Assembly (NCBI GenBank): GCA_030145245.1
Contig: JAQYWC010000074.1
Coordinates: 62,001 to 126,000, forward strand
Length of the DNA: 64,000 nt
Source of the DNA: Desulfobacterium sp.
GTDB taxonomy: Bacteria; Desulfobacterota; Desulfobacteria; Desulfobacterales; Desulfobacteraceae
Direction of reading: 5' to 3'
Below are positions 20,797-57,664 of this stretch, one piece after another. Within the stretch, counting starts at the first letter, position 1. Every line of letters starts with the position of its first letter. The translations under genes and the position numbers were made by a program. The notes beneath the pieces were generated by a model, which was given only the letters and a program-made list of their open reading frames with translations, had not been told where the DNA came from and made no database searches.

Positions 20797-20798
20797 TT

Positions 20799-20820
20799 GG
20801 GGTCAGGTCTGGCTTATTGT
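20799..20820 (+). repeat. Partial GGGGTCAG repeat (half copy)
   Basis: GGGGTCAGGTCTGGCTTATT starts 2 nt after the DUF4198 stop; a left arm only, directly ahead of a complete copy. Confidence 0.8.
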
Positions 20821-20828
20821 AAAAAACA

Positions 20829-20902
20829 GGGGTCAGGCTTAGCTTATTGTTGTCAGATTATGACTCACCAACAGCAAACGTCAATAAGCTAAGCCTACCC
20901 CC
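20829..20902. repeat. GGGGTCAG hairpin repeat, type A copy 1
   Basis: 74 bp: left arm GGGGTCAGGCTTAGCTTATT, 32-nt middle, right arm AATAAGCTAAGCCTACCCCC (two arm mismatches). Located between the DUF4198 gene and the LbtU gene. Confidence 0.9.
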
Positions 20903-20912
20903 GATTACATCA

Positions 20913-20936
20913 CGGCAGGTCTGTCCGGACCTGCCG
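20913..20936. other. 9-bp hairpin ahead of the LbtU-family gene
   Basis: CGGCAGGTC pairs perfectly with GACCTGCCG around TGTCCG. No T-run. It could lie in the leader of the porin gene that starts at 20972, or help end transcription from the left. Confidence 0.4.
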
Positions 20937-20971
20937 CCGAACCATGATAAAAAGGATATTAAGAAATAAAG

Positions 20972-22012
20972 ATGAAAAAAAGAAGTTTCACCATCAGTGC
21001 GGTTATCTCGCTCATTGGATGTTTCACCCTTGCCACCAGTACATTTGCCCTGGACCTGAACGATTTCACCCCGGAAAAGATCAAACTTTCCGGCACCATC
21101 GAGATCGAGGCCGGATTTGAGAACAACGATATTGAAAATGAAGATACAAGCGATATCTCCCTTGCCACGGCAGAGCTTGGCATTGAAGCAAAACCTGTCG
21201 ACTGGCTCACAGGCTTTGCCCTGCTCTCATGGGAAGACGATGAGGATAAAATCATATTTGACGAAGCCCATATCACCCTTGGAGGCACCGATGCAATCCC
21301 CTACTATCTCCAGGCCGGTAAATTCTACATGCCCTTTGGTGTTTTTGAGACAAACATGATCTCAGACCCCCTGACCCTGGAGTTTGCAGAGGTTGTGGAC
21401 ACAGGCGCCCGGATCGGCATTGAGATATCAGGATTCCGCGGCTCTGTTTACACATTCAACGGAGAGACAGACGAGGCAGGAGAAGACGACGAGATCCGCA
21501 GCTTTGGTGCCTCCGTGGGCTATGCCGTTGAAACAGACGGTTTCACACTTGCAGCCGGTGCAGACTGGATCAACAACATCCTCGAGTCCGACGCCATGCA
21601 CGAATATGTCACCGGCACGGGCGACCTTGAAGATGATGTGGCAGGATTTGGGTTAAATGCCATGATCGGTTTTGGCCCGGTCACCCTGACCGGTGAGTAC
21701 CTGGCAGCCACTGACGACATCGAGTTCACCAATGCGGCCAAGCATGAAGCGCCTTCTGTGTGGGCCCTCGAAGCCGGCTACACCCTTGAAATCGCAGGCA
21801 AGGAGACCACCCTTGCCCTGGCGTACCAGGCCACCGATGATGCAGCGGAGATCCTGCCCGAGTCAAAGTTCCTGACATCCGTGGGAGTTTCCCTCACAGA
21901 GGCCCTTTCCGTGGCCCTGGAGTATTCAAAGGCAGACGACTATTCTGTCTCTGACGGGGGCACCGGCGACGATATCCATGCGGTAACAATGCAGCTGGCA
22001 CTTGAATTCTAA
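20972..22012 (+). CDS. LbtU-family siderophore porin
   Basis: 346 residues: signal peptide 1-26 (ending TSTFA), then an acidic beta barrel with alternating strands and a C-terminal phenylalanine (LALEF). The pattern KLSGTIEIEAGFEN, ELGIEAKPVDWLTGFALLSWE and YYLQAGKFYMPFGVFETNMISDPLT is that of the LbtU family, named for the TonB-independent legiobactin porin of Legionella. No TonB box. Iron chelate passage is inferred from the family and from the surrounding iron genes. It sits between two copies of the GGGGTCAG repeat, so it may be a separate transcript. Confidence 0.8.
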   Translation: MKKRSFTISAVISLIGCFTLATSTFALDLNDFTPEKIKLSGTIEIEAGFENNDIENEDTSDISLATAELGIEAKPVDWLTGFALLSWEDDEDKIIFDEAHITLGGTDAIPYYLQAGKFYMPFGVFETNMISDPLTLEFAEVVDTGARIGIEISGFRGSVYTFNGETDEAGEDDEIRSFGASVGYAVETDGFTLAAGADWINNILESDAMHEYVTGTGDLEDDVAGFGLNAMIGFGPVTLTGEYLAATDDIEFTNAAKHEAPSVWALEAGYTLEIAGKETTLALAYQATDDAAEILPESKFLTSVGVSLTEALSVALEYSKADDYSVSDGGTGDDIHAVTMQLALEF

Positions 22013-22023
22013 ATAAAAAAACA

Positions 22024-22033
22024 GGGGTCAGAC
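22024..22033 (+). repeat. GGGGTCAG fragment
   Basis: GGGGTCAGAC, a short left-arm fragment 11 nt after the porin stop and directly before a full copy. Confidence 0.6.
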
Positions 22034-22043
22034 TTTTTTAAAA

Positions 22044-22117
22044 GGGGTCAGGCTTAGCTTATTGTTATCATATTATAATTCACAAACAACATAAGCCAAT
22101 AAGCTAAGCCTGACCCC
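22044..22117. repeat. GGGGTCAG hairpin repeat, type A copy 2
   Basis: 74 bp with perfect 21-bp arms (GGGGTCAGGCTTAGCTTATT plus G, and its complement) around a 32-nt middle related to that of copy 1. Confidence 0.92.
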
Positions 22118-22156
22118 GACAACAATGCCCCCGATAACAATGGAACCCAAATAAGA

Positions 22157-23140
22157 ATGAAAGCATCCAACATATCAGAATCCATCCAGACCCTTGCCCC
22201 CACGGGCCAGCCCCTGTTTCTATGGGGCCCTCCGGGGGTCGGCAAGAGCCAGGTGGTAAAAGCAACCGCCCGGGCCATGGGCATCGACCTCATCGATGTC
22301 AGGGCCATCCTCCTGGACCCCGTAGACTTAAGGGGGCTACCCCGGATCAGCCAGGAAGGGCTATCCCAGTGGTGCGCCCCGGATTTTCTCCCCCGCCAGG
22401 GCCAGGGGATCCTCTTTCTTGACGAACTCAATGCCGCCCCGCCCCTGGTCCAGGCCGCCTGCTACCAGCTGGTCCTGGACAGGCGCCTGGGGGAGTACGA
22501 ACTGCCCGAAGGGTGGACCGTCATCGCGGCCGGAAACCGGGAAACGGACAGGGCCGTCACCCACAGGATGCCCTCTGCCCTGGCCAACCGGTTTGTCCAC
22601 ATCGATTTTTCCGTGGATCTTGAGGAGTGGATCGACTGGGCCATTGATGCCGCCATCGCTCCGGAAGTGATCGCCTTCCTGAGATTCAGGCCCACGCTCC
22701 TCCACAGCTTTGACCCGGAGACCAACACCAAGGCATTCCCCTCACCTCGCTCCTGGGAGTTTGTCTCCAACCTGGTCTCCTCCGTGCCTGCCCCCCACCT
22801 GTTCCACGAGCTTGTCCAGGGAACGGTGGGCAAGGGGGCGGCAGCGGAATTTACAGGCTTCATCAAGATCTGGAAGGAGCTGCCCCCGGCCCGGGAGATC
22901 CTGGACCATCCCAACGCAATCAACATCCCCAAAGATCCCGCCATCCTGTTTGCCATGTGCGAAATGCTGGGCCATGCCGTCACCGGTACCGACATGGAAG
23001 CGATGGTTCAATTCGGCTCCCGGCTACCGGCGGAATTCGGCGTGCTCCTCATGCGGGAGGCGGTCCGGAACGAGGCCGCCCTCCTCCACACCCCGGCATT
23101 TGCCGAGTGGGCCAAAACCAACTGCGATGTCCTGGTCTGA
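22157..23140 (+). CDS. MoxR-type AAA+ ATPase
   Basis: 327 residues. Walker A GPPGVGKS (24-31), Walker B ILFLDE (85-90), sensor 1 AAGNRE (124-129), arginine-rich LANRFVHIDF. MoxR ATPases work with VWA-domain partners as chaperones or metal-insertion motors, the same pairing seen in magnesium and cobalt chelatases. The partner VWA gene begins 15 nt downstream. Unlike classical MoxR (about 310-330 aa), the C-terminal half is not obviously the standard lid, so the substrate remains open. First gene of a four-gene operon that ends with a periplasmic binding protein. Confidence 0.88.
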   Translation: MKASNISESIQTLAPTGQPLFLWGPPGVGKSQVVKATARAMGIDLIDVRAILLDPVDLRGLPRISQEGLSQWCAPDFLPRQGQGILFLDELNAAPPLVQAACYQLVLDRRLGEYELPEGWTVIAAGNRETDRAVTHRMPSALANRFVHIDFSVDLEEWIDWAIDAAIAPEVIAFLRFRPTLLHSFDPETNTKAFPSPRSWEFVSNLVSSVPAPHLFHELVQGTVGKGAAAEFTGFIKIWKELPPAREILDHPNAINIPKDPAILFAMCEMLGHAVTGTDMEAMVQFGSRLPAEFGVLLMREAVRNEAALLHTPAFAEWAKTNCDVLV

Positions 23141-23155
23141 GGGGTGGAGACAGCA

Positions 23156-24406
23156 ATGATAAATCCCAAAGCCCACACCAGGATCCTGAAGGCAAGGACC
23201 GCCCTTGTCCTGAACCACCCGTTCTTTGCCTCCCTTGCCCTGCGCCTCACCGTAAAGGAGGACCCCTCCTGCGACACCGCCTGGACAGACGGGCATGTAT
23301 TTGCCTACAACCCCGACTATGTCAATATCCTGCCGCCGGACAAACTCCTGGGACTTACCGCCCACACGGTGATGCACCCGGCCTGCAACCACCACACCCG
23401 GCGAAGCAACCGGAACCCGGACCTGTGGAACCGGGCCTGCGACTACGCCATCAACCCGATTCTCCTGGACGCTGGCCTCACCCTGCCGGACGGTTTTCTC
23501 TTTGACGCGCAATATAAGGGAAAGAGTGCGGACGCGGTTTATGAAAGCCTTGTTGCCCAACAAAGCGACAACCAGGAGAAAAAGGAGGACCAGGACCAGG
23601 AGAGGGACGACAGGACCGATACCGACCTTGGGGATGAAGGGGAGGCGCCGGCCCAAGCACCCCCCGGAAAGGAGGAAAAGGAGGTCCGGGCCTCCGACGA
23701 CCCGGACGATGGCACAGGCGACCCGGGCAAATCGGGAGAGATCCGGGACATGCCCTCCCCGGATGCCAGGGAAAACGACGACCACGAAACCGACTGGGAC
23801 GAAGCCCTTATCCAGGCGGCCACCAACGCAAGGTCAATGGGACGGCTGCCCGGGGGCCTGGACCGCTTCATCCAGGAACGGGTCAACCCCAGGCTGTGCT
23901 GGCAGGAGCTCCTGTCACGGTTCATTGAAAACACGGCACGGTCGGACTACTCCTGGATCACCCCCAACCGGCGCCATGTACACCAGGGCCTCTATCTGCC
24001 CTCCCTGAGAAACAGCGAACTTGCCGACATCGCCATTGCCGTGGACACCTCGGGCAGTATCCGGCCGTCAGAGACAGACCAGTTTGCCGCAGAACTCTCC
24101 GCCATCATGGAGAACTTTCCTGCAACCCTCCACCTGATTTACTGCGACATGGCCGTGACCGGCTACCAGCGTCTTGAAAGAGCCGACCTGCCCGTGGCCA
24201 TCCGTCCCAAGGGCGGGGGCGGCACGGACTTTCGCCCGGCCTTTGATCACGTAAAGCAACAGGGCATTGATCCTGCCTGCATGATCTACCTCACCGACCT
24301 TGAGTGCAACTCCTTTCCCCAAACCCCGGCCTATCCGGTGTTATGGGTCAAGACCGGGGAAGGCACCATCCTTCCCCCGTTTGGAGAGGTCATCACCTTA
24401 AACTGA
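23156..24406 (+). CDS. VWA-like protein with degenerate metallopeptidase-like N-terminus (DUF2201)
   Basis: 416 residues. The N-terminal part (1-130) is the putative metallopeptidase module that accompanies DUF2201 VWA proteins, but the zinc motif reads HTVMH (70-74): the catalytic Glu of HExxH is replaced by Thr, so peptidase activity is unlikely. A very acidic, low-complexity linker covers about 135-215. The C-terminal VWA domain has a complete MIDAS: DTSGS near 296, the Thr in GGGGTDFRP and the Asp in YLTDLE. ATG 23156 has GGTGGAG; an in-frame GTG at 23144 is less likely. Partner of the upstream MoxR ATPase. Confidence 0.85.
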   Translation: MINPKAHTRILKARTALVLNHPFFASLALRLTVKEDPSCDTAWTDGHVFAYNPDYVNILPPDKLLGLTAHTVMHPACNHHTRRSNRNPDLWNRACDYAINPILLDAGLTLPDGFLFDAQYKGKSADAVYESLVAQQSDNQEKKEDQDQERDDRTDTDLGDEGEAPAQAPPGKEEKEVRASDDPDDGTGDPGKSGEIRDMPSPDARENDDHETDWDEALIQAATNARSMGRLPGGLDRFIQERVNPRLCWQELLSRFIENTARSDYSWITPNRRHVHQGLYLPSLRNSELADIAIAVDTSGSIRPSETDQFAAELSAIMENFPATLHLIYCDMAVTGYQRLERADLPVAIRPKGGGGTDFRPAFDHVKQQGIDPACMIYLTDLECNSFPQTPAYPVLWVKTGEGTILPPFGEVITLN

Positions 24407-24419
24407 CAGGGAGATTGTC

Positions 24420-24908
24420 ATGAAAATCAACTGGACCATCACCAAAAAAAGGGGCAATTTCCGCCCCACCCTGAACTATAAAATCACCCTGGAGGCATTT
24501 GAAAAAAAACTGGCCGTCAACGCCGTTTCCATCAAGAGCACCATCCCGGCTGTCCCGGATCCCCACCAGGGATTCTGCCTTCCCGGCACCAACGAGAGAT
24601 CCCCCCAATGGAAGGGGTCGAACTGCCATTATCTCAGCGTGCCCTATTTTAAAAAAGGGGAGGCCAGCGGGTTCATCCGGCTGCCGTTCAGGGAGTCCCG
24701 GGAGTACCCAGAGGTGACGGCCTCGTTTCAAACCCTCAGGGATGCCTATGAAACCGTTGTAAGGCAGGCATACGGCCATGGCCCCCTTAACCTTACGGAC
24801 GAACTTGAAATGTCCCAAGGGACAAAACAGGAGATCGCGGCCACCATCACGGCCGCAACCCTCTTCAATAACTTTGCCGCCCCCCAAGCCATGGAGATCC
24901 GACAATGA
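24420..24908 (+). CDS. Unknown protein in the MoxR-VWA operon
   Basis: 162 residues, no signal peptide, no membrane span, no family I recognise. It starts MKINWTITKKRGNFRPTLNYKITL and carries two cysteines (FCLPG and SNCHYL) and a conserved-looking ending ATITAATLFNNFAAPQAMEI. GGGAG precedes the ATG, 13 nt after the VWA stop; its own stop overlaps the next start (ATGA). Tight coupling on both sides argues that it is a working part of the MoxR-VWA-binding-protein unit. Confidence 0.7.
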   Translation: MKINWTITKKRGNFRPTLNYKITLEAFEKKLAVNAVSIKSTIPAVPDPHQGFCLPGTNERSPQWKGSNCHYLSVPYFKKGEASGFIRLPFRESREYPEVTASFQTLRDAYETVVRQAYGHGPLNLTDELEMSQGTKQEIAATITAATLFNNFAAPQAMEIRQ

Positions 24909-25861
24909 AAAAAAATTTACTATTCCTTATCCTGGGTACCACCCTGTTCTGGAGCAACACCGCCCTTGCAGCCTGTTCATCCATCCCCATCGAAAAAAAG
25001 AATGTGGTGATCGTTGGCGAACGGGCCGTGTCAACCGCCCTTCATCTCAATATATTGCCCACCGCATGGGTGGGCAGCAAGGACCTGTGGGAAGGGGCTT
25101 CCACGGCCCGGGCCGGAGCACGGTTCCTGAGCTGTTCCAAAGGCCTTGCCGGCCATAAAAAGACAAAGGTCAAAAACGCCCTGCAACAGTACAAGGAACT
25201 GCCGGTCCTCCTCTCCAAAGCGTCCCCCCCATGCCGCTACAAGTCCGACATCACCCCGGCAGCGATTGAACAACAGCTCAACGCCTGGGGCATCACCCCG
25301 GTTGTCATGGATTTCACCCAGGGCATTGACCCGGCCGTCACGGCCCTGGGCGACTACTTTGGCTGCCCGGACAAGGCTGCGGCCGAGCTTGCCGCCTACC
25401 ACAAACTCATGGACAAGGCCAAAGCCATGGCACCCAGGGTAAAACCGGGGCTGAAGGTGGCCGTTGTCAGCGGCACCCTCCAGACCGCCACCGGCAAAAG
25501 CTTCCTGCGGCTTGAGGCCCCGGGCGGGTATACGGACACCTACATCCTCGACAAGCTCAAGGCCCGCAACCTTGCCCATGCGGTGATCACCCCCCGGGAC
25601 AAAATTTCCAAGGGGCATCTGTCCATCCGGAAAATAGACAAAATATTGGCGGCCAATCCCGATGTGATCGTCATCACCGGGGATAGCATTGCCGTTCAAA
25701 CGGCCATTGCGCGGGCGGTGGCAAAGCACCCGGAGTTGTCAGACACCCCGGCACTCAGGCATCAGGCTGTTTTCTCCCTCCCCTTTTACAGCGATGCCGA
25801 TCCCCTCTCCTATCCCCAAATCCTCATGAAATGGATCACCGCATTGGGGGGACAGGCGTAA
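24905..25861 (+). CDS. Periplasmic binding (lipo)protein, iron-chelate/cobalamin type
   Basis: 318 residues with a type III periplasmic-binding fold: two lobes joined by a long helix (KAAAELAAYHKLMDKAKAM), with NVVIVGERAV at the start, LLSKASPPC and NPDVIVITGD in the lobes, ending in a C-terminal helix PQILMKWITALGG. The signal peptide ends LAAC with Cys24, a plausible lipobox, so it may be a lipoprotein. Three more cysteines (SCSK, PPCR, FGCP) are unusual for a binding protein and could bind metal or form disulfides. No permease or ATPase for import follows. Start overlaps the previous stop. Confidence 0.75.
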   Translation: MKKNLLFLILGTTLFWSNTALAACSSIPIEKKNVVIVGERAVSTALHLNILPTAWVGSKDLWEGASTARAGARFLSCSKGLAGHKKTKVKNALQQYKELPVLLSKASPPCRYKSDITPAAIEQQLNAWGITPVVMDFTQGIDPAVTALGDYFGCPDKAAAELAAYHKLMDKAKAMAPRVKPGLKVAVVSGTLQTATGKSFLRLEAPGGYTDTYILDKLKARNLAHAVITPRDKISKGHLSIRKIDKILAANPDVIVITGDSIAVQTAIARAVAKHPELSDTPALRHQAVFSLPFYSDADPLSYPQILMKWITALGGQA

Positions 25862-25869
25862 TGACAAAA

Positions 25870-25941
25870 GGGGTCAGGCTTAGCTTGTTGCAAGGCTTAC
25901 CGCAGCACCGAAAAAATCACCAACAAGCTAAGCCTGACCCC
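25870..25941. repeat. GGGGTCAG hairpin repeat, type B copy 1
   Basis: 72 bp, perfect 21-bp arms (GGGGTCAGGCTTAGCTTGTT plus G and complement), 30-nt middle with CTTACCGCAGCACCGAAA. It begins 8 nt after the binding-protein stop. Confidence 0.92.
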
Positions 25942-25974
25942 AAAGTCCCGAAACCTGTTTTTTTTAAAAAAGTA

Positions 25975-26032
25975 TTGACAGAGCCCTCCAGGGATTATAT
26001 TTTCTCACATAAATTAGTTAGGCAACCCAAAC
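25975..26032 (+). promoter_or_regulatory. Flavodoxin promoter with downstream iron-type box
   Basis: TTGACA (25975-25980), 17 nt, TATTTT (25998-26003), then GTTAGGCAACCCAAAC (26017-26032) where the polymerase would start. Here the box is downstream of -10, the geometry of a repressor site. Confidence 0.65.
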
Positions 26033-26090
26033 ATACTTAGACACGACTGATCGCCTTGAGGTGATCAGAGAAAACCCACAAGGAGACACC

Positions 26091-26537
26091 ATGGCCAAAG
26101 CACTCATCATCTACGGATCAACCACAGGGAACACCGAATTCGCCGCCGAAGAGATCGAAACCATTCTAAGGGACAACAACGTTGAGATCACCCTGAAGAA
26201 TGTCACGGACGCCGGGGTGGAGGCGCTTGAAAACGACTTTGATCTCTACCTTCTGGGTGCCTCCACCTGGGGGGATGACGAGATCGAGCTCCAGGAGGAT
26301 TTCGTGGATTTCTTTGATGACATGAAAGCGGCCCCCCCATTTGAAGGAAAGCGCTTTGCCGTCTTTGGCTGCGGCGATTCCACCTACGACTATTTCTGCG
26401 GGGCCGTGGATGCCATCGAAGAACGGATCAGGGCAAAGGGCGGCCAACTGGTGGCAGAGGGCCTGAAGATCGACGGAGACCCTGAGACGGAAGAGATCAG
26501 GGAATGGACCGAATCGGTTGTATCAACCATAGCCTAG
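26091..26537 (+). CDS. Flavodoxin
   Basis: 148 residues, a short-chain flavodoxin that carries electrons on FMN and typically replaces ferredoxin when iron is scarce. The phosphate loop is IYGSTTGNTEFAAE (8-21); the FMN-isoalloxazine loops are GASTWGDDEIE (about 58-68) and FGCGDSTYDYFCGAVD (about 91-106), with aromatic W and Y in the expected places. ATG 26091 has AAGGAGA; the open frame to 26061 has no ribosome site. The iron-type box in its promoter fits control by iron. Confidence 0.96.
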   Translation: MAKALIIYGSTTGNTEFAAEEIETILRDNNVEITLKNVTDAGVEALENDFDLYLLGASTWGDDEIELQEDFVDFFDDMKAAPPFEGKRFAVFGCGDSTYDYFCGAVDAIEERIRAKGGQLVAEGLKIDGDPETEEIREWTESVVSTIA

Positions 26538-26545
26538 GAGACACC

Positions 26546-26878
26546 ATGATTAATTCCCCAAAGACACTCAACAGAAAAGCGGAATTAAAGTCCATCGGCC
26601 GCCTCAACCGAACCGGAATGGCCGATGGAAATGCGGGCCGGTATGACGAGGCAAAGGCCAAGCTCAGAACCGCCCTGGCCAAAATCCAGAACATCGGCCT
26701 GGGCTGCCTTGAACCCAAGATCCTCAACAACCTCGGGCTGGTCCATGCCATGGAGGGCCGGTGGGACCAGGCCATTCTTTACTACAATGATGCCCTGGCG
26801 ATGACGGAACACCACTCAGGAACAGACAACGTTCTCTACAGGACCGTCCAGAAAAATATCACCCACCTCTTTCAATAG
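26546..26878 (+). CDS. Small tetratricopeptide-like protein
   Basis: 110 residues, all helical. Two TPR-like pairs are visible: GMADGNAGRYDEAKAKLRTAL and NNLGLVHAMEGRWDQAILYYNDAL, each with the Gly/Tyr and Ala spacing of TPR helices. No signal peptide. It follows flavodoxin by 8 nt with GGAGA before the ATG, so both are made from one iron-controlled message; a binding partner for flavodoxin or a regulator is possible but unproven. Confidence 0.75.
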   Translation: MINSPKTLNRKAELKSIGRLNRTGMADGNAGRYDEAKAKLRTALAKIQNIGLGCLEPKILNNLGLVHAMEGRWDQAILYYNDALAMTEHHSGTDNVLYRTVQKNITHLFQ

Positions 26879-26961
26879 GGAGCAGGCCTGCCTTGTTATC
26901 GTTATTTACGGCAACAAGACACCCCCTCCCCCGTCCCTTTTCTATCAGCAAAGGAGATCCC

Positions 26962-27804
26962 GTGAACACATTCACCAATCCAAAAAGCAGCCTCAAAAAC
27001 AAATTAACAGGGTATGTCCTTCCCATTGTCTCATGCCTCTTATTCGCCTCCAGCTCATTTGCCCACACCCTCTATATCCAGTCCAGCCGCTACCATGTCC
27101 ATGAAGGCAAACAATTCCCTCTCTTCTTCTGCTACGGCCACCACATCCCGGTTTCCGACGGGGTACGGGCAAAAAAACTGAACAATATCAAGGTCCACGC
27201 GCCCTCGGGAGAGGTTAAAGAGATTCAAATCCGGGATGAGACCTCCCTCCACTCCTACATGGTCGACTATAAAACCCCTGGCACCTATGTGCTGACCGCA
27301 GAAACCAATCCCGGTTACTACACGATCTATATCGATAAAAAGGGCCGGGAACACCATGTGATCAAACCGAAAAACCTTGTTGAAGCCAAGGCCCAAAAAA
27401 TCATCACCAGCCTTTACTGCAACCAGTACACAAAGACCTATGTGGTGTGCGACACCCCGTCCCCGGAATTTCCAGCCCGGGTGGACCTGGCCCTGGAACT
27501 TGTGCCGACAAAGGATATCTCCACCCTGAAACCCGGTGATACCCTGGAGCTGTCCGTGTGGAGCAACGGCAAGCCCTATAACGGTGAGGGCAGCTGGGAT
27601 GCCTCATATAGCGGCTACTCAACCAAGGCGGAGGATATGTTTTACAAAGAAACAACGGTGTCCAGCGGCGACCCCCTGAAAATCCCCATTCCCAAATCGG
27701 GGCGCTGGTTCATTCGCTACTCCACGAATACCGATGCCACAGGCGAAGCCCTCAACTCCTGCAACCAGCTCAAACAGGCCGCATCCCTTGTATTCCAGCT
27801 ATAG
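26962..27804 (+). CDS. DUF4198 (COG5266-like) periplasmic protein, second copy
   Basis: 280 residues from a GTG start preceded by AAGGAG. An N-terminal signal segment (about 12-34) ends SSSFA, and the mature chain begins HTLYIQSSRYHVHEGK, again with His at the first position as in the copy at 19996. The C-terminal part (TLKPGDTLELSVWSNGKPYNGEG) is the carboxypeptidase-regulatory-like module. Overall identity to the other copy looks low, so they probably serve different metals or partners. Lies 83 nt after the TPR gene; the intervening bases show no terminator. Confidence 0.78.
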   Translation: MNTFTNPKSSLKNKLTGYVLPIVSCLLFASSSFAHTLYIQSSRYHVHEGKQFPLFFCYGHHIPVSDGVRAKKLNNIKVHAPSGEVKEIQIRDETSLHSYMVDYKTPGTYVLTAETNPGYYTIYIDKKGREHHVIKPKNLVEAKAQKIITSLYCNQYTKTYVVCDTPSPEFPARVDLALELVPTKDISTLKPGDTLELSVWSNGKPYNGEGSWDASYSGYSTKAEDMFYKETTVSSGDPLKIPIPKSGRWFIRYSTNTDATGEALNSCNQLKQAASLVFQL

Positions 27805-27810
27805 ATAATG

Positions 27811-27856
27811 GGGGTCAGGCCTAGCTTATTGTCGTTATTTCAGCACGGCCTGACCC
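27811..27856. repeat. GGGGTCAG repeat, short form
   Basis: GGGGTCAGGCCTAGCTTATT, a reduced middle, then GGCCTGACCC; a deleted version of the hairpin, 6 nt after the DUF4198 stop. Confidence 0.8.
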
Positions 27857-28429
27857 GGTCACCCTTTAATTGAAATCGAAATGCAACAACTTCAGATACC
27901 GCCTGGAAATGGGGTGATCAAAAAGGACCTTTTCTCCACCGGTTTCATACCGACATTAAAAATAATACCATTTCCCAGACTCAATTCAGCGGGTTGAAAT
28001 GCCAATAATCTCCAGAAGCGTACCCGCCGGAACAGACGGACTGACAACTATCATCTGGCTAACATTAAAAAAACTTTCACCGTCAAGCAAAAGAAGAACC
28101 ACACCTGACCTACCAAAAAACGTCGCATATACAAATCGTCCATCAGGACCGACACAACACCTCTACAAGTGAGACTACACCTTAAGAATCTACAGTTCAT
28201 GCCGCCTAAAAAAAATTATTGACAATCAATTCTCACCAATGTAAGCATTTAAATCATAGAGACCACACCAATAATGCTTGAGATCAATCCATGGATAGCA
28301 ACAAACAGAGCTTCACCTATTATTATCAGCCGATTCGCTAACGTTAGTGCCATTGAGAAAGGTACCGCAGACGCGGTTACATTTTTTTCAGGAATATAAT
28401 CTATTAACCCACAGGACAGGGAGAATAAG
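27857..28429. other. Long AT-richer intergenic region
   Basis: About 570 nt without a convincing gene. On the complement, 27986-28165 reads as an open stretch (GPDGRFVYATFFGRSGVV, then a stop) without a start codon, perhaps a decayed gene end. A possible promoter for the next gene is TTGACA 28219-28224 with TAAGCA 17 nt later. Confidence 0.35.
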
Positions 28430-30238
28430 ATGGCAGAACAGATAGCAGACAGAAGAGATATCGATTTCGTATTATTTGATCAGTTAAACGTTGATGAGCT
28501 GTGCCATGTCGAAAAATTCCGCGATTTCAATAAAAATACCTTCACCATGCTGATAAATGAAACCAGAAAATTTGCAATTAAGGAGATCCTGCCCACCTAT
28601 CAGGCAGGGGACCGTGAGGGTGTCCGGCTGGAAAACGGAAACGTGATCATTCCCGAATGTTACCGGCGCCCGTTCAATCTGTTAAGGGAAGCTGAATTTA
28701 CCTCCATCACCGAAGATCCCGAATACGGGGGCCAGGGTGTTCCCGAAACCATTGCAACGGCTGCGGCGGAATATCTTGTGGGAACCAATTTTGCTTTTGC
28801 CACCTATTCTTTCCTTGGTCACGGAACCGGTAAGATGATCGAGCTCTTCGGCACGGCGCGACAAAAAGAGCTCTACCTGAAAAAGCTCTATACCGCCCAA
28901 TGGGGAGGCACCATGCTTCTTACGGAACCCAATGCCGGTTCCGATGTCGGCAGCCTTGAAACAACGGCGAAACCCAATAAAGACGGCACGTTCACGCTCA
29001 CCGGGAACAAAATATTCATCACCTCGGGAGATCATGACCTGACCGAAAATATCATCCACCCGGTGCTGGCCCGCATCGAAGGCGCGCCCAAAGGGACAAA
29101 AGGGATTTCCCTCTTTCTCGTTCCCAAATACCGGGTGAATGATGACGGTTCCCTGGGAGAGAAAAACGATATTGTCTGTACGGGTGTGGAGGAAAAAATG
29201 GGCATCCACGGCAGCGCCACATGCAGTATGGCATTAGGCAGCAAAGGCAAGTGCCGCGGCGTGCTCCTCGGGGAAGAAAATAAAGGCATGAAAGTCATGT
29301 TTCACATGATGAATGAAGCACGGCTCGGCGTTGGACTTCAGTCGTTTGCCCATGCATCCAATGCCTACCTCTACGCCTTGAATTATGCCAGGGAAAGAAT
29401 ACAGGGCCGGGCCCTTGAAGACACTTTGAACCACGCAGCTCCCCCGGTAGCGATCATAAATCACCCCGATGTCAGAAGAATGCTTCTTGAGATGAAATCC
29501 CATGTGGAGGGCATGAGAAGCTTCACCTATTATGTCGCCAATTGCTTCGACAAAGCCAAAATCGCCGACACCCAGGAAGAACGGGACAAGTCAAAAATGA
29601 TGAGCGAACTGCTTACCCCGGTGCTCAAAACATATAACAGCCAAAGGGGCTTTGACATGTGCGTCAAGGCGATCCAGGTGTACGGCGGTGCCGGATATAC
29701 CAAAGACTACCCCGTCGAGCAGCTGGCCAGGGACTGCAAGATTGCGTCCATCTACGAAGGCACAGACGGCATCCAGGCCATGGACCTGCTCGGAAGAAAA
29801 CTGGGGATGAACAATGGCCAGGCCTTTATGGATTTTATCAATGAAGTAAAAGGCGTTATCGCCAAAGCAAAAGAAGATGATGGCCTGAAAGTCCTTGCAG
29901 ACAGGACAGAAACATTGATCAACGACCTGGGGCATGCAGCAATGCATCTGGGAACCACGGCAATGTCTGACAAGTTCAAGGTCGCCTTTGCCCACTCGGT
30001 TCCCTTTGTTGAAGTAATGGGAGATACGGTAATGGCATGGATGCTGCTGTGGCGGGCAAACATTGCCAGTGAAAAACTTGGCAACGGCGCAAAGAAAAAG
30101 GAGGTGCCCTACCTTGAAGGCCAGATTAAAAGCGCCGATTTTTTCATCAACAACATCACCCCCATGACCCTGGGAAAAATCGCTTCAATCCAAGCATCAG
30201 GCGATGCGGCTGTCACAATAAGCGATGCTTCCTTCTAA
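28430..30238 (+). CDS. Acyl-CoA dehydrogenase, long form with C-terminal extension
   Basis: 602 residues, an FAD enzyme that introduces the alpha-beta double bond in acyl-CoA. The standard fold runs from about 80 to 460: FLGHGTGKMIELFG, GTMLLTEPNAGSDVGSL (substrate/FAD loop), GNKIFITSGDHD, MNEARLGVGLQ, QVYGGAGYTKDYPVEQLARDCK and the catalytic base in IYEGTDGIQAMDLLGRK near 443. An extra 140-residue C-terminal helical domain is typical of the FadE5/AcdA-like group acting on longer or branched acyl-CoA. GGGAG lies before the ATG. No electron-transfer flavoprotein gene adjoins it. Unexpected inside an iron island. Confidence 0.92.
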   Translation: MAEQIADRRDIDFVLFDQLNVDELCHVEKFRDFNKNTFTMLINETRKFAIKEILPTYQAGDREGVRLENGNVIIPECYRRPFNLLREAEFTSITEDPEYGGQGVPETIATAAAEYLVGTNFAFATYSFLGHGTGKMIELFGTARQKELYLKKLYTAQWGGTMLLTEPNAGSDVGSLETTAKPNKDGTFTLTGNKIFITSGDHDLTENIIHPVLARIEGAPKGTKGISLFLVPKYRVNDDGSLGEKNDIVCTGVEEKMGIHGSATCSMALGSKGKCRGVLLGEENKGMKVMFHMMNEARLGVGLQSFAHASNAYLYALNYARERIQGRALEDTLNHAAPPVAIINHPDVRRMLLEMKSHVEGMRSFTYYVANCFDKAKIADTQEERDKSKMMSELLTPVLKTYNSQRGFDMCVKAIQVYGGAGYTKDYPVEQLARDCKIASIYEGTDGIQAMDLLGRKLGMNNGQAFMDFINEVKGVIAKAKEDDGLKVLADRTETLINDLGHAAMHLGTTAMSDKFKVAFAHSVPFVEVMGDTVMAWMLLWRANIASEKLGNGAKKKEVPYLEGQIKSADFFINNITPMTLGKIASIQASGDAAVTISDASF

Positions 30239-30244
30239 CGAAAA

Positions 30245-30316
30245 GGGGTCAGGCTTAGCTTGTTGACAGGCTTACCGCAGCACCGAAAGAAATACCAACA
30301 AGCTAAGCCTGACCCC
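30245..30316. repeat. GGGGTCAG hairpin repeat, type B copy 2
   Basis: 72 bp, perfect arms, middle nearly identical to copy 1 (CTTACCGCAGCACCGAAA). It begins 6 nt after the acyl-CoA dehydrogenase stop. Confidence 0.92.
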
Positions 30317-30326
30317 GATGATTACA

Positions 30327-30446
30327 TTAACCGTATCCGCTCCCGGCAATGCCCCCGCCCGCTATCATCACGACCACCACCACCGCCACAAAGAGGTAGA
30401 TCACCTCGGACCGGGTGATCACAGGTTTGACAATCCGTTGTTCCAT
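30327..30446 (-). CDS. Tiny single-span membrane protein
   Basis: 39 residues: a basic N-terminus (MEQRIVKPVITRSE), one hydrophobic helix (VIYLFVAVVVVVMIAGGG) and a glycine-rich tail (IAGSGYG). AAGGAGAAGAG stands at ideal distance before ATG 30446, which is strong support for translation although the frame is short. It lies alone on the minus strand, its 3' end 11 nt from a GGGGTCAG repeat. Function unknown; such mini-proteins often tune transporters or oxidases. Confidence 0.6.
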   Translation of the reverse strand: MEQRIVKPVITRSEVIYLFVAVVVVVMIAGGGIAGSGYG

Positions 30447-30553
30447 TCTCTTCTCCTTTAATATGGGGCAGGTCTGTACACTTGACACCGGTATGGCCGC
30501 CAACCTTAACTCACCCCCATTCCATAGTTCAGCTGACCGCCAACAGATAGACA

Positions 30554-30585
30554 ATAAACTTCTTTTTTACAAAGAAGAAGTTTAT
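30554..30585. other. AT-rich perfect hairpin
   Basis: ATAAACTTCTT (30554-30564) and AAGAAGTTTAT (30575-30585) are perfect complements with a 10-nt loop, in the 314-nt gap between the tiny membrane protein and the chemoreceptor. Confidence 0.45.
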
Positions 30586-30603
30586 GCAATGCAACAAAAA
30601 GAT

Positions 30604-30695
30604 AGACATGCCAAACTTTTTTCTGTTGACAAAGACAGAATTCTATTCTAATCACCCACATTATGGCGTTGCAAAAAATGTTTTGCACACCAAAC
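30604..30695 (+). promoter_or_regulatory. Chemoreceptor promoter with two iron-type boxes
   Basis: A degenerate box ending ATGCCAAAC (to 30616), TTGACA (30626-30631), 17 nt, TAATCA, then a better box TTTTGCACACCAAAC (30681-30695). The chemoreceptor starts at 30761. Confidence 0.45.
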
Positions 30696-30760
30696 AAACC
30701 ACCCACACTATTTTATAAAAGGATAAAGACACAATTGAAAAAATCTAACGGAACACTGAC

Positions 30761-32902
30761 ATGACCCTGAAGAATATAAAAATCACCCACAAAATTATCT
30801 GCGGGCTTGCCATATTACTGAGCCTCACCCTCGCCATCAGCGCAGGTGCCCTCTACAGCGCCAGGATATTCAAGCAAAAAACCGAGAGGAACATTGCCCT
30901 GGAAGAGTTGATCACCTTTGGGGAACAGATGGAGGAAACGGCCCAAAGCTGGCTTGTTCACAGGGAAAGCTTAGGTCGGCAGGCATCCACCGGCAACAGG
31001 GCGGATGGGATTCAAAAGAAGAATCCCCTTGAAGAATACCTGGCCCTGCGCGACCAGGTCCGCACCCGGTCGGACCACCTGTCCTCAGCCGGGCTTTCTC
31101 CCGGGGAATCAAAAGCCCTGGAGGATCTGATGGCCACGTTCAACGACTACGACACCGTCTTTGGCAGCTACCGGACCCAGTTTGACCAAGGGGTGGCGCT
31201 CATGGATCAACTGCGGGAACAGGCCACCGGTATCCTGGGCTCCGCCATCTCCCTGGACAGGGCGGTCAAACGTAAAACCCAGAAGCTGAACCTGCGCCTG
31301 GACACCCTCAGGCAACAGCTTACCCGGGGGACACCGCATACAGACGAAAGCACCCTTGGGGAGATAATGGAGATCACCGATGCCCTGGCAGCCCAGGCTG
31401 AACGCACGGGGCTAACGGCCATCCTCATTAACAAACCCCTTGGTTTTCAGGAGATGGCCAAGGATTTTGTTCTTTACCAGGAGGATGCCAGCGGCAGCGG
31501 CCTGATCACAGACATGGAAAAACTGCTCGGGATCGATACAGCGGCAACCATGGGGGCCTGCCTGCCGTCCATGAAGCCTTACTTCACCTCCGGCCGGGAA
31601 GGAAGGCTCTTTGACAAAATCACCCGGGGCACAGGGGATTATCTTGCCCGGTTCAAGGAATACTATGACCTGAATTTTGCCCTGCGGAAGACCATGCAGC
31701 TGATGGAAACCAAGCGCGAGTTGTCCCAGGAGCGTGCCGCCGGGATCCGGGCCGGCCACGTGGCGGCACTGGGCGCGTTCCAGGAAAAGGCCACCCGTTT
31801 CCTGGTCGTTTTCACCTGCGCCGCTATGGTGCTGGGGGTGATGATCGGTTTCAACCTTGTCAGGGGAGTTGTCGGCCCCATCAAAAAAGTGGGTTCCGGC
31901 CTCAAGGAGATTGCTTCGGGGGAAGGCGACCTGACCAAACGGCTGAATGTGGCGTCCAGGGACGAAGTGGGCAGCCTGGCCCGATGGTTCAATCTGTTTG
32001 CCCGGAAATTGCAAGAGATGATCACGGAATTTGCCGGAAATGCAGAAACCCTCAATCGCTCTTCCCATGATTTTTTATGCATTTCGGAACAGATGTCGAC
32101 CGGTGCCGCCCAGGTGGCCGAAAAATCAAACGCCGTTGCAGCCGCAGCCGAAGAGATGAGTGGCAACCTCTCCTCCCTGGCGGCGGCAGCCAGCCAATCT
32201 TCGGCCAATATCGCCATGATTTCGGCGGCGGCCGAAGAGATGAACCACACCATTGGTAACATTGCCCAAAACACCGCAGAAACACGGGAGACAAGCATCC
32301 ACACCGTCACACGGGCCCGAACAACAGCGGACCGTATCACCGGCCTGAGCACCTCGGCCCGGCAGATCGGCAATGTGGTTGAAACCATCACGGACATTTC
32401 CGAGCAGACCCACCTGCTTGCATTAAACGCCACCATTGAGGCTGCGCGGGCAGGGGAGGCCGGGAAAGGCTTCGCTGTCGTAGCCGGTGAGATCAAAAAC
32501 CTGGCTCAGCAGACAGCAGATGCGACCCAGGAAATTAAAAATAAAATCGAGAACATTCAAGGCGCCACCCGGGAAACGGTTTCGGAAATAGAGGAGATCA
32601 CGGGGGCCATCACCCATGTAAACGAAATGATAGATCATGTTGCCGCATCGGTTGAAGAACAGTCTGCCACCACCGCCGAGATCGCCGGCAATGTAAGCCA
32701 GGCAGCCGACGGCATACGGGATGTCACCGACAATATCACCCAGGGTTCAGATGCCGCCGCCCGGATCGCAACGGATATGGCGGACGTCAACCAGGCATCC
32801 CACCAAATGTCGGACAATGGATTAAAAATCAACGACAGCGCCGAGTCGCTAAACCAATTGTCCCAGCGACTCAAACAAAAAGTGGAGCAGTTCAAAGTTT
32901 AA
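30761..32902 (+). CDS. Methyl-accepting chemotaxis protein
   Basis: 713 residues. TM1 at about 13-33, a long helical periplasmic region (34-344) without a Cache fold and probably a helical-bundle sensor, TM2 at about 346-367, HAMP (368-418: [24 protein letters not shown]) and a cytoplasmic signalling hairpin whose tip carries [20 protein letters not shown]. It relays ligand binding to CheA/CheW. No C-terminal CheR-docking pentapeptide (ends KVEQFKV). Iron-type boxes upstream suggest production under iron control. Confidence 0.92.
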
Positions 32903-32920
32903 CCCATAAACATTTAAAAA

Positions 32921-32992
32921 GGGGTCAGGCTTAGCTTGTTGACAAGCGTACTGCAGCACCAGAAATAATACCAACAAGCTAAGCCTGACCCC
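32921..32992. repeat. GGGGTCAG hairpin repeat, type B copy 3
   Basis: 72 bp, perfect arms, middle slightly diverged (CGTACTGCAGCACCAGAAA). It begins 18 nt after the chemoreceptor stop. Confidence 0.92.
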
Positions 32993-33000
32993 GATGATAT

Positions 33001-33021
33001 CAACAAGCTAGGCCTGACCCC
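33001..33021. repeat. GGGGTCAG half copy forming the end of the P-type ATPase gene
   Basis: CAACAAGCTAGGCCTGACCC plus C: a right arm only. On the minus strand it encodes the final residues W-G-Q-A and the TAG stop of the ATPase. Confidence 0.88.
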
Positions 33022-34846
33022 AGCAGAGGGAGGCGGCCAGGAGCACCACCAGTATGGAGCCGAGGTTGTGCATGACAGCGCCCATGATCGGGGTCAACAG
33101 CCCCAGGGAGCCGGCAGCCACGGCAACAAGGTTGATCAGAAAACTGATGGCAATGCTGACCTTGATGATCCGGCTCATGTTTTTACCCAGGTCGATGAGA
33201 AAGGGCAGCCGGTCCAGCCGGTCGTTCATCAATACCACGTCCGCCGTTTCAAGGGCGGCATCGGAACCGTTCAATCCCATGGCAATGCCCACATCGGCAG
33301 CCTTTAAGGCCGGTGCATCGTTGATTCCGTCCCCCACATAGACAAGACCGCCCCTGGGGTAGGAATTCAATACCGCAAGCTTGTCCTGGGGCTTCTGGCA
33401 GAAATGGATCTCCATGATCCCCACCCCGTCTGCCACGGCCCTCACCGGCGCCTCCTGGTCGCCGGAAAGGATGGCAACATCCTCGGCCCCCGTCCTGCGA
33501 ATGGCTTGGACCGTTTTTTGTGCGCAGCTTCTTGGCCGGTCCTGCAGGCCAATGTATCCTGCCGTACCCGTGTCCACAACCACTTGGACGGCGGTCAATC
33601 CAAGGTCTGCCCAGCGATCGCTTGTTACGATCTCAACCCGTCTCTGCCCCACCATACCGGATATCCCCCTGCCCGGTTCCGAAAAGATGCCGGTGGCGAC
33701 TTGGGCGTCGCATCCAAGCGCCGTGGCCTTTGCCACGATTCCCTTGGCAAGGGGGTGAAGGCTGCCGGCTTCAATGGCTGAGGCAAGGGAGAGCATCTCT
33801 TTTTCAGTGAACCCGGGCGAAACATCCATCCGGGTGACCACGGGCTCGCCCTGGGTAAGGGTCCCTGTCTTATCAAAGAACACCCCGGTTGCGGTTGCTA
33901 TCTTTTCAAGGCTCCTGCCGCCCCGGACAAGGATGCCGGCCTTGGCGGCCCGGCCGATGGCGGCAACGGTGGATACCGGCCCGGCCAGGAGAAAGGAGCA
34001 GGGGCAGCCCACGATGAGCACCGTGATCGCCCGGGTGATATCCAGGGTGATCCCATAGGTGAGAGCGGCAACAAAAAGGATAACCGGGGTAAAAAACGCG
34101 GCATAGCGATCCACAATCCCCCCACTCTCCGTCTTTGACGCCTCCGCTTCCCGCACCATCCGGATGATCTTGCCGATGGTTGAATTCTCCCCCACCTGGG
34201 TGGCTTCGGCCTTGATGAATCCGTCCACACACAGGGTGCCGGCATACACAGGATCGTTGACCTGCTTTACAACCGGAATCGACTCCCCGGTGATGGTGGA
34301 CTCGTCCACGGAGGTTGCCCCGCTTGTGATGATGCCGTCAACGGCAATAGTCTCCCCGGCCCTGATGACAACCCTGTTCCCGGGGACAATATCGGAAACG
34401 TTCACCTGGACCTCGCCCCCCTCTTTTTCGATGGTTGCCTGCCCGGGCGCAAGTTCCATGAGCTGCTGGATCGCGTTCCTCGCACTGTCGCTCACGGCCT
34501 CCTCCACCAGGGCCCCGAACATCATGATGGCACTGACAACGGCCGCCTCAAAAAAATTGCCGTTGAAAAGACAGGCAAGGATGGCAATGCTCACCAGTTC
34601 GTCCACATTGATCTGGCGTTTCATCATGCCCCGGAAGGCCCCCATGATAATAGGCACACCGTTGACGGCGATGGATACCATCAGCACCAGGTCTGAGGGG
34701 GAAAGATTTAAAAGCGGCAAATCACCCGTACGGGTCACTGCCAGGGCAGCCGGAATGAGCATGCCGCCGGACGCAACCCGGAAAAAGTCCCTGGATTTAA
34801 AGATCTCCCGGTACACATTGAGATTCCCATGTCGCCCTATCATCAC
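33008..34846 (-). CDS. Heavy-metal P1B-type ATPase without N-terminal metal-binding domain
   Basis: 612 residues, an inner-membrane pump for a soft or transition metal. Actuator TGES (186-189), membrane metal site CPC (281-283), phosphorylation site DKTGT (325-329), P1B-specific His-Pro in SLHPLAKG (364-365), hinge GDGIND (505-510). The HMA (CxxC) domain usual at the N-terminus is missing: membrane spans begin at about residue 25. Cu(I), Zn and Cd are all possible. The last four residues (WGQA) and stop come from a repeat half copy. Preceded by a strong promoter with MarR-type operators. Confidence 0.92.
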   Translation of the reverse strand: MMIGRHGNLNVYREIFKSRDFFRVASGGMLIPAALAVTRTGDLPLLNLSPSDLVLMVSIAVNGVPIIMGAFRGMMKRQINVDELVSIAILACLFNGNFFEAAVVSAIMMFGALVEEAVSDSARNAIQQLMELAPGQATIEKEGGEVQVNVSDIVPGNRVVIRAGETIAVDGIITSGATSVDESTITGESIPVVKQVNDPVYAGTLCVDGFIKAEATQVGENSTIGKIIRMVREAEASKTESGGIVDRYAAFFTPVILFVAALTYGITLDITRAITVLIVGCPCSFLLAGPVSTVAAIGRAAKAGILVRGGRSLEKIATATGVFFDKTGTLTQGEPVVTRMDVSPGFTEKEMLSLASAIEAGSLHPLAKGIVAKATALGCDAQVATGIFSEPGRGISGMVGQRRVEIVTSDRWADLGLTAVQVVVDTGTAGYIGLQDRPRSCAQKTVQAIRRTGAEDVAILSGDQEAPVRAVADGVGIMEIHFCQKPQDKLAVLNSYPRGGLVYVGDGINDAPALKAADVGIAMGLNGSDAALETADVVLMNDRLDRLPFLIDLGKNMSRIIKVSIAISFLINLVAVAAGSLGLLTPIMGAVMHNLGSILVVLLAASLCWGQA

Positions 34847-34856
34847 GCCTCCTTAA

Positions 34857-34952
34857 AAGTTTGAATTTCGAGTAGTTTGAATGTCAAGCTATCTTTACCG
34901 GCTGATATATCCCGATATAGCTCGGGTGTCAAGTAGTTTGATGATCAAGCTA
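34857..34952. promoter_or_regulatory. Divergent promoter region with TAGTTTGA-N3-TCAAGCTA operators
   Basis: Two identical-arm palindromes, TAGTTTGA-ATG-TCAAGCTA (34873-34891) and TAGTTTGA-TGA-TCAAGCTA (34934-34952), 61 bp apart, plus a weaker copy at 34857-34875. They flank a minus-strand promoter for the ATPase: TTGACA (34927-34932), 17 nt, TATATC (34904-34909). Most likely bound by the MarR protein encoded at 35026. Confidence 0.75.
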
Positions 34953-35025
34953 CTTTTTTAGATTGTGTCGGAAGATAGCCTGTGATAGGGGAACACCAAC
35001 GACATGAACTCATTTGGAGAACAGG

Positions 35026-35439
35026 ATGGAACTGAAAAACCTGGCAAGAATCATAGTGGAATTTTACGAAAAGCTCTCCTCCTGGGAAGAGTCGGTGGTC
35101 AGGGACTCAGGCCTTACCACGGCCCAGATCCATACCATTGAGATCGTCGGCCATGCCGGGGCCATAAAGATGAAGGATCTGGCAGGAAAGATCGGCGTGA
35201 CCACGGGCACCCTGACCGTCAGCGTTGACAGGCTTGAGAAAAAGGGCCTTCTGGTACGAAGACCCCATGAAAAGGACAGGCGTTCCTACATGATCGAGCT
35301 GACCCGGGAAGGCAAAAAACATTTTGAAGAGCACCACAACTTCCACATCAGAATGACGGAAGAGATCGTTTCGTGCCTGAGTGAACAGGAGCAGAAGGCC
35401 TTTGCCGGGATCATCGAAAAGATGCTGAAAAGAATCTAA
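35026..35439 (+). CDS. MarR-family transcriptional regulator
   Basis: 137 residues: dimerisation helices at both ends and a winged helix (about 30-105) with GAIKMKDLAGKIGVTTGTLTVSVDRLEKKGLL as recognition region and RRPHEKDRRSYMIELT as the wing, including the conserved D-R-R. ATG 35026 is preceded by GGAG at 6 nt; an in-frame TTG at 35014 is less likely. Divergent from the P-type ATPase with shared operators, so it probably represses that pump and itself. MarR control of a P1B ATPase is unusual (ArsR, MerR or CopY are usual). Its stop codon overlaps a repeat half copy. Confidence 0.9.
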   Translation: MELKNLARIIVEFYEKLSSWEESVVRDSGLTTAQIHTIEIVGHAGAIKMKDLAGKIGVTTGTLTVSVDRLEKKGLLVRRPHEKDRRSYMIELTREGKKHFEEHHNFHIRMTEEIVSCLSEQEQKAFAGIIEKMLKRI

Positions 35440-35450
35440 GCCTGACCCCA
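35436..35450. repeat. GGGGTCAG half copy shared by two convergent stop codons
   Basis: CTAAGCCTGACCCCA: supplies WGQA plus TAG to the hybrid kinase on the minus strand and contributes to the TAA of marR on the plus strand. Confidence 0.8.
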
Positions 35451-49393: not shown

Positions 49394-49431
49394 CTATTTC
49401 CTCCTGCTTATCAATGGCTTTAAATCCCCTA

Positions 49432-49467: not shown

Positions 49468-49498
49468 TCCACTCCCGGAAGCTTTTTCAAGATTTCAT

Positions 49499-57632: not shown

Positions 57633-57664
57633 GGCTCCTCCCTGTCAATCCCAGGAAAACGGTT

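Follow-up and report, generated by a model that had tools for sequence, protein, structure and literature searches.

The 64-kb stretch of DNA analysed here (the window), from a Desulfobacterium sp. genome, holds a metal island in which hairpin repeats lie directly behind the stop codons of genes, at positions 20799-35449. The question that this locus raises is what these repeats are and what brought them to gene ends. An initial annotation had proposed a repetitive extragenic palindromic (REP)-like element with a preference for 3' ends, probably spread by a REP-associated tyrosine transposase (RAYT) and serving as a two-way terminator. Our analysis points to high-copy, non-autonomous, REPIN-shaped mobile elements that consist of two inverted terminal repeats of a TIRYT-type Y1 transposase, a reading to which we assign a probability of about 0.83. 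To judge from their sequence, the repeats are REP-like and very probably mobile, as the annotation held, but they appear to belong to the TIR/TIRYT branch, with GGGGWSAS ends and a transposase with a DnaA-like C-terminus, and not to the canonical GTAG REPs.

Results

An arm-flanked transposase in the congener and in relatives

The terminal repeat, hereafter the arm, flanks a transposase gene in Desulfobacterium sp. MAG9 (G001), a member of the same genus. On contig JAEINR010000013.1 of that assembly, the identical arm is present on both sides of a gene that separates thiC from thiD and encodes a Y1 (HUH/tyrosine) transposase of 318 aa, whose C-terminal domain is DnaA-like. The RAYT flanked by the same arms that had been predicted therefore exists, as a RAYT-like Y1 gene, in the congener, while none was found in the assembly of the window's own genome. 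The assignment of the C-terminal domain is based on NCBIfam DnaA models, which match two of the three proteins scanned, on Pfam Bac_DnaA_C, which matches one of the three below its cut-off, and on a weak match of the MAG9 protein to DnaA 2z4r (E 0.013). The class 2 signature Y---NP is present in the MAG9 protein as YIHLNP.

Units of arm, transposase and arm of about 1.0 kb also occur in the relatives G004 and G023, with arms that differ in their inner part, and a further relative, G030, carries an arm-flanked transposase gene with its own version of the arm. The arms of these three genomes combine a constant GGGGTCAG end with a variable inner part. We extended the comparison to 80 public loci of this transposase type; the frame is intact in 71, and 57 of the 71 come with 200 nt or more on each side. 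An inverted GGGGWSAS pair, identical at 16 or more of 21 positions, is present in 32 of the 57 loci, compared to a mean of 6.1 (maximum 12) for mismatched loci. Across 35 loci (these 32 and three from this analysis), arm positions 9-21 track the similarity of the transposases (Spearman 0.44, 0 of 5000 permutations). In 23 of the 32 loci the right arm contains the end of the transposase frame, which in 14 falls exactly 4 nt before the arm end, at TGA.

Other Y1 genes were also observed in these bacteria. A Y1 protein of 294-296 aa with an NHIH motif adjoins arms in G033 (L067:18382-19266) and G030 (L261:1129-2019), and G004 has a distant Y1 match within its array region (C63:54632-55054). Further Y1 genes (L255, L259, L260 and L033) have flanking GGGGACA-type repeats of their own, namely GGGGACAGACCACG, GGGGACACCTTACTTAATT and GGGGACAGATTTATTTT. 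Several arms, inspected by eye, repeat an inner block every 8-9 nt (CTTATTG..GTTATTG and similar), and these blocks are possible iterons for the DnaA-like domain.

Abundance and anatomy of the repeats

Searching the whole genome (6,418,480 bases in 83 contigs) with the arm GGGGTCAGGCTTAGCTTRTTG returned 236 matches with at most three mismatches, 84 of them exact. The reversed arm pattern, used as a control in the same genome, gave no match, so the arm matches are not due to chance. At the same threshold, MAG9 holds 119 arms and G004 258.

Anatomy and placement were studied in 44 regions that were picked for holding arms; together they comprise 508,841 bases including the window, and 83 of the 84 exact arms fall inside them. 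In total, 162 arms with at most four mismatches and 44 full elements were counted in these regions. The full elements are REPIN-shaped: two inverted arms of 21 bp enclose a middle of about 30 nt (28-33 nt in 38 elements, 0-19 nt in the remaining six). In the five full copies of the window we see what had been described there, 21-bp arms with a middle of either 30 nt (type B) or 32 nt (type A). The two arms are exactly complementary in four of these five, and the right arm of the copy at 20829-20902 carries two mismatches. Since all six exact TTGTTG arms of the genome lie inside the window, type B is a local variety.

The two arms of an element tend to change together. Arm changes are shared by both arms at 16 sites and unmatched at 21, compared to 1.5 matched changes when arm partners are shuffled, a level of matching that none of 5000 shuffles reached; without the window, 13 changes are matched and 19 unmatched. 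Folded as RNA, the five full window copies reach -34.6 to -41.9 kcal/mol (z -7 to -10). As DNA, the one arm pair tested folds at -22.3 kcal/mol, and single arms at 0 to -0.1. Two single arms and one extended arm gave no fold when tested. An Rfam search of the hairpins returned nine hits with E up to 1, none of them above its gathering score.

Placement at gene ends and donation of stop codons

Genes in the 44 regions were called with a purpose-written dicodon gene finder, and the calls were left uncurated. The arms form 66 clusters, of which 57 lie between two genes, eight at contig or region edges and one within a gene call. Among the 57 intergenic clusters, 21 are convergent, 32 tandem and 4 divergent. 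Spacer length would predict 4.2, 33.7 and 19.1, respectively, and spacer number 9.6, 35.7 and 11.7; none of 20,000 length-weighted draws matched so few divergent or so many convergent clusters. The proposed preference for 3' ends also holds outside the window, where 18 clusters are convergent, 28 tandem and 4 divergent. Within tandem spacers, 23 of the 32 clusters are closer to the 3' end, which 39 of 5000 uniform placements equal, and 19 of 28 are so without the window.

The initial annotation had suggested that a whole-genome search with the 21-bp arm be combined with distances to stop codons; both were carried out and agree with it, giving the 236 copies above and a nearest stop codon within 20 nt in 36 of 53 clusters (overlapping or touching the cluster in 11 of 53). 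The bases preceding GGGG are A/T-rich, with A at -3 in 91 and at -4 in 85 of 162 arms. No fixed tetranucleotide precedes GGGG, the most frequent being AAAA, in 12 of 142.

The arm itself sometimes supplies the stop signal of a host gene. Read from GGGG inward, it encodes Gly-Gln-Ala-TAG in one frame, and its opposite strand offers TAA and TGA. A GQA-stop at an arm terminates 13 of the 458 called genes, 11 at GGTCAGGCYTAG and two at decayed versions, and three of these genes are in the window. The P-type ATPase, binding-protein and thiD genes end in the donated GQA in MAG9 as well, which suggests that these three donations are probably older than the split of the two species.

Similarity of neighbouring copies

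We compared the middles of 38 of the 44 full elements, those with a middle length of 24-36 nt. Elements at most 12 kb apart (16 pairs) have a mean middle similarity of 0.58, compared to 0.43 for the 687 other pairs (permutation 2/10,000); with the window left out, seven near pairs remain, at 0/10,000. For 13 of the 19 elements that have a neighbour within 12 kb, this neighbour is the most similar element of all. All seven near pairs with a similarity of at least 0.65 have the same orientation, although these pairs are not independent, as three of them are the type B trio. The far pairs comprise 18 inverted and 8 in the same orientation, the orientation of contigs being arbitrary there.

These results suggest a local, strand-keeping spread of copies. 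Near-donor single-strand transposition would fit this pattern, and gene conversion between neighbours is an alternative that would fit it too.

The missing transposase and other points against mobility by a TIRYT

Several observations weigh against our reading. Arms outside inverted pairs are common, the 44 full elements accounting for 88 of the 162 arms, and 25 of the 57 public loci are without a good inverted pair. The gene calls come from our own script and from regions selected for arms. When six further relatives with arms were searched with the MAG9 protein, a close relative was found in G030 only; the Y1 genes of G002, G013 and G033 are all distant, and no hit at E 1e-10 was obtained in G019 or G025. 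The assembly of the window's genome yielded no cognate transposase, and no Y1 gene found there is flanked by arms.

The Y1 genes of this assembly were each considered as the cognate and rejected. The best match, on contig C30, is 37-39% identical but is bounded by different repeats; 1.3 kb from it there is a cluster of arms, just on one side and beyond another gene. The genes on C13, C42 and C45 are interrupted, with no arm in the 2.3 to 6 kb around them, and a fragment on C3 is 13 kb from the sole arm of its contig. On the other hand, arms are found no more than about 110 nt from nine or more contig ends (C3, C24, C33, C39, C60, C70, C72, C77 and C82), so a transposase copy may hide in an assembly gap.

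The comparison of orthologous sites covers the window island and thiC-thiD. Each of the two flanks of the thiC-thiD site aligns at 88-89% between the species. Between the flanks MAG9 has an arm, a REPIN, the transposase, a REPIN and two arms, and in the window's genome a single REPIN is accompanied by three more arms, with no transposase. Loss by recombination between REPINs, or a later gain in MAG9, would both be possible explanations of this difference. Transposase loss that leaves repeats behind has also been proposed for REPs (PMC3686654).

Two side observations concern the same assembly. One is an element at C42:1-3521, presumably RIT-like, that has inverted ends and three frames for tyrosine recombinases; according to a reading of the flanks, it sits in the HUH-motif codons of Y1 genes. 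The same 42-nt end occurs at the HUH codon region in C3, C13, C42 and C45, and one gene appears to be split between C3 and C42; if true, a choice of the catalytic motif in RAYT-like genes as target would be remarkable. The other is an integron integrase match of nearly full length at C52:13832-14764 (366.5 bits, above the cut-off).

Relation to known repeat families

TIRYTs, or TIRtrons, have been described as Y1 transposase genes between inverted repeats, many with GGGGWSAS, and some of these repeats overlap the ends of open reading frames (Di Nocera, De Gregorio and Rocco 2013, PMC3733652). In the same source, TIR families are moderately abundant, often as dimers or clusters, alongside TIRtrons in a limited number of genomes. 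The family described here resembles them in that its arm begins with GGGGTCAG, which fits GGGGWSAS, and in that inverted arms flank a RAYT-like Y1 gene in MAG9. It differs from the TIRs as presented in the available part of that paper by its 236 arms in one genome, the measured 3' preference, the covariation of arm and transposase, the transposase-free orthologous site and the signs of local spread.

Subclass 2.1 of the TnpA-Y1 proteins carries, in part, a Bac_DnaA_C or HTH C-terminal extension, and Y---NP is the signature of class 2 (Quentin et al. 2018, PMC6006769). TIRYTs were suggested to be this subclass; the available text of that source reports no REP-like sequences near those genes and calls for confirmation. 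In contrast to that report, arms flank the gene here and are multi-copy in the genus, our likening to subclass 2.1 being one of features and not of tree placement. Judged by its sequence features, the family is a new, large member of the TIRYT/TIR kind with a REPIN-like anatomy. Among the matches listed, searches of open-access literature by title, including one for GGGGTCAGG together with transposase, found no report of this repeat in these bacteria.

REPINs are inverted doublets of 71 or 110 bp that form a hairpin with a variable spacer and have a Y1 transposase nearby, with singlets as remnants (Bertels and Rainey 2011, PMC3116915). REPs are found chiefly downstream of genes, in spacers that are unidirectional or convergent, and GTAG REPs often supply a TAG stop (PMC3733652). 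Our elements share with REPINs the inverted doublets, mostly of 70-75 nt, the hairpin and the variable spacer, and the intergenic sites at gene ends and the covariation of arms would also agree with canonical GTAG-type REPs and REPINs spread by a canonical RAYT. We consider this origin extremely improbable. As far as these sources describe their repeats, ours differ in having no GTAG-type foot, the arm starting with GGGG, in having single arms without an internal hairpin, and in belonging to another transposase branch, the flanking gene combining a DnaA-like C-terminus with GGGGTCAG ends as in TIRYTs. The donated ends differ too: one strand gives Gly-Gln-Ala-TAG and the other TAA or TGA, as opposed to the TAG of GTAG REPs.

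Alternative explanations

A miniature inverted-repeat transposable element (MITE) of a DDE transposase would likewise be short, non-coding and present in many copies with inverted repeats, and a DDE transposase gene is among the arm-bordered genes of the array in G033. A target-site duplication of 4 or 5 nt was seen in none of the 44 full elements, though, and duplications of 2 and 3 nt are about at chance (3 and 2 of 44 observed, 2.4 and 0.9 expected). The gene that lies tightly between inverted arms in MAG9, G004 and G023 is a Y1 transposase, a finding made with no genome-wide search for an arm-flanked DDE gene. With these results a MITE is very improbable. An origin by function instead of movement is less so, yet we still regard it as unlikely: the hairpins would be dedicated bidirectional transcription terminators selected at gene ends, and their mobility incidental. 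Stable hairpins at 3' ends and in convergent spacers would suit such a role. T-rich tails (at least five T in 8 nt) follow full elements on the plus side in 8 of 44 and on the minus side in 9 of 44, about twofold above the 8.3% of control spacer 8-mers. Tails are present on either side in 17 of 44, on neither in 27 and on both in none, so a general two-way intrinsic terminator, as had been claimed, is unlikely. The features of an intrinsic terminator (GC-rich stem, short loop, U-tract) do not come together in the elements as a general two-way terminator, the loops being mostly about 30 nt. Moreover, many copies are single arms, of which those tested, like the extended arm, do not fold, and the window and MAG9 have some sites in common but not all. 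In the window, an A-run stands before the element at four of the five full copies, so a U-tract would arise there in minus-strand transcripts only. Some elements may terminate transcription in one direction, or may protect the 3' ends of mRNAs.

The arms could also be integron-like cassette recombination sites that mark the ends of movable gene cassettes, in the metal island too. This question arises from relatives in which arms are single and direct. In G033, which we take to be Desulfobacula toluolica Tol2 (a single contig of 5,197,905 bases), 25 of 26 arms are gathered at 919-981 kb, in the neighbourhood of polysaccharide genes, frequently with one arm separating a gene or a small group of genes from the next. 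Within 70 kb of this genome all 27 arms (at most three mismatches) are single, in the order ten minus, sixteen plus and one minus; in 21 of them the inner arm end faces the nearest 3' end, in five GGGG does and in one neither, and a 294-aa Y1 gene lies inside the array. Two island cassettes, at 48081-49138 and 49139-49689, are found again with their order swapped (as 56875-57944 and 56324-56874), 96-99% identical and with their edges at arms. These two cassettes each begin one base ahead of an arm and continue across the following arm, and an arm also marks the start of a third. The R boxes of attC sites read RYYYAAC/GTTRRRY, and an inspection of G033 flanks by eye showed none. G002 (six of six) and one of two G023 stretches (five of five) likewise have long series of single arms on one strand; in these, as in the other G023 stretch and in G004, single arms separate small genes and gene groups. 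In the window, the alignment with MAG9 begins or ends at arms at 32972 and 35439, a correspondence that may be due to chance.

Against integron-like sites, other repeated blocks of G033 neither begin nor end at arms, and many arms in the window's genome are inverted pairs with gene-free middles. Strands are mixed in the other G023 stretch (six of six single) and in G004 (15 of 23 single), and one G023 pair encloses the transposase. No integron integrase lies beside the G033 array (0.92-0.98 Mb), the two strong matches above the cut-off being at 2.36 and 3.04 Mb, more than 1.3 Mb away. We hold recombination sites of this kind to be quite unlikely as a general explanation. For Desulfobacula-like genomes a tentative idea, which we regard as doubtful but worth stating, is that single direct arms are cassette borders: a Y1 (HUH) transposase would excise single-stranded DNA circles, each holding one 29-nt repeat together with one gene or a pair of genes, and would insert these circles again at other repeats, a system that would be integron-like without an integron integrase. 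Homologous recombination between the repeats could also shuffle the G033 units.

Copies within the window

All ten copies listed in the initial annotation were found at their positions in the window, together with two sites absent from that list. The first arms behind six named genes had been placed 2 to 18 nt past the stop codons, and we measured 2, 11, 8, 6, 6 and 18 nt. The identities of both DUF4198 genes, the periplasmic binding protein, the acyl-CoA dehydrogenase and the chemoreceptor were confirmed, and the porin match was below the cut-off. All copies below are on the plus strand unless noted otherwise.

Two nucleotides past the stop of the first DUF4198 gene (19996-20796) lies a single arm with three mismatches (20799..20819), followed by a full type A element with 21-nt arms and a 32-nt middle (20829..20902; -34.6 kcal/mol). 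A partial arm, GGGGTCAGAC and then a T/A run (22024..22043, 7 mismatches in 21 nt), begins 11 nt past the stop of the porin-like gene (22012), and directly adjoins a full type A element with perfect arms and a 32-nt middle (22044..22117; -36.8 kcal/mol). The binding-protein gene (24905-25861) ends in one of the newly found sites, a probable, strongly decayed arm with 10 mismatches (25848..25868) that contains its TAA stop with the GGQA end; in the MAG9 ortholog this GGQA end lies within a recognisable arm (4 mismatches). Eight nucleotides past the stop at 25861 is a full type B element with TTGTTG arms and a 30-nt middle (25870..25941; -40.4 kcal/mol). The other new site is a decayed arm with 7 mismatches (26878..26898), whose first base is the last stop-codon base of the open reading frame 26504-26878.

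Further along, a single arm with the inner extension TCGTTATTT (27811..27840) lies 6 nt past the second DUF4198 gene (stop 27804), and MAG9 has this extended arm at the orthologous place. Two full type B elements with 30-nt middles follow, one at 30245..30316 (-40.8 kcal/mol), 6 nt past the acyl-CoA dehydrogenase stop (30238), and one at 32921..32992 (-41.9 kcal/mol), 18 nt past the chemoreceptor stop (32902). The last two copies do contain stop codons, as had been noted. The single arm at 33001..33021, on the minus strand and common to MAG9, gives the TAG stop (WGQA end) of the P-type ATPase gene 33008-34843(-). The single arm at 35429..35449, also on the minus strand, holds both the TAA of the MarR gene 35026-35439(+) and the TAG (WGQA end) of the kinase gene 35436-38249(-), and the alignment of the window with MAG9 stops at this arm.

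The claim that no copies occur elsewhere in the 64 kb stands, as no arm within six mismatches lies outside 20799-35449; the bare 8-mer GGGGTCAG occurs 18 times in the window, compared to 4.5 expected, and four occurrences (934, 4053, 20326 and 36496) are outside the elements.

The MAG9 counterpart of this region differs from it. Contig C148 is without the stretch from the start of the first DUF4198 gene to the binding-protein gene (window 19996-25861), and a single protein there joins the signal region of the first DUF4198 protein to the body of the second. A second MAG9 contig carries the DUF4198 gene start.

Discussion

Taking the repeats as terminal repeats of a TIRYT-type Y1 transposase, we propose the following course. 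The enzyme encoded between the arms in the congener would cut single-stranded DNA at the GGGG end, and the hairpin-folding pair of arms would be copied or moved to nearby single-stranded DNA of the same strand. Copies persist behind genes and between convergent genes, presumably since insertions in genes and promoters are purged; at gene ends, the stop codons of the arm would end genes harmlessly, and the transposase often uses the arm's stop itself. The assembly of the window's genome is without the cognate gene, either because the lineage may have lost it or because the assembly may miss it. As RNA, the hairpins may slow 3' decay or block minus-strand readthrough at some sites.

The local spread of copies in the same orientation fits a single-strand, fork-bound mechanism, and if the cassette idea for the Desulfobacula-like genomes were true, a Y1 enzyme would run a gene-capture system. 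By donating stop codons, a mobile repeat enters host proteins, giving them their last three residues as well as the stop codon. With this family, the TIRYT branch, so far little studied, gains a high-copy member whose matching transposase is found in a sister species; the family also addresses the TIRYT link that, in the available text of the 2018 classification (PMC6006769), was left open.

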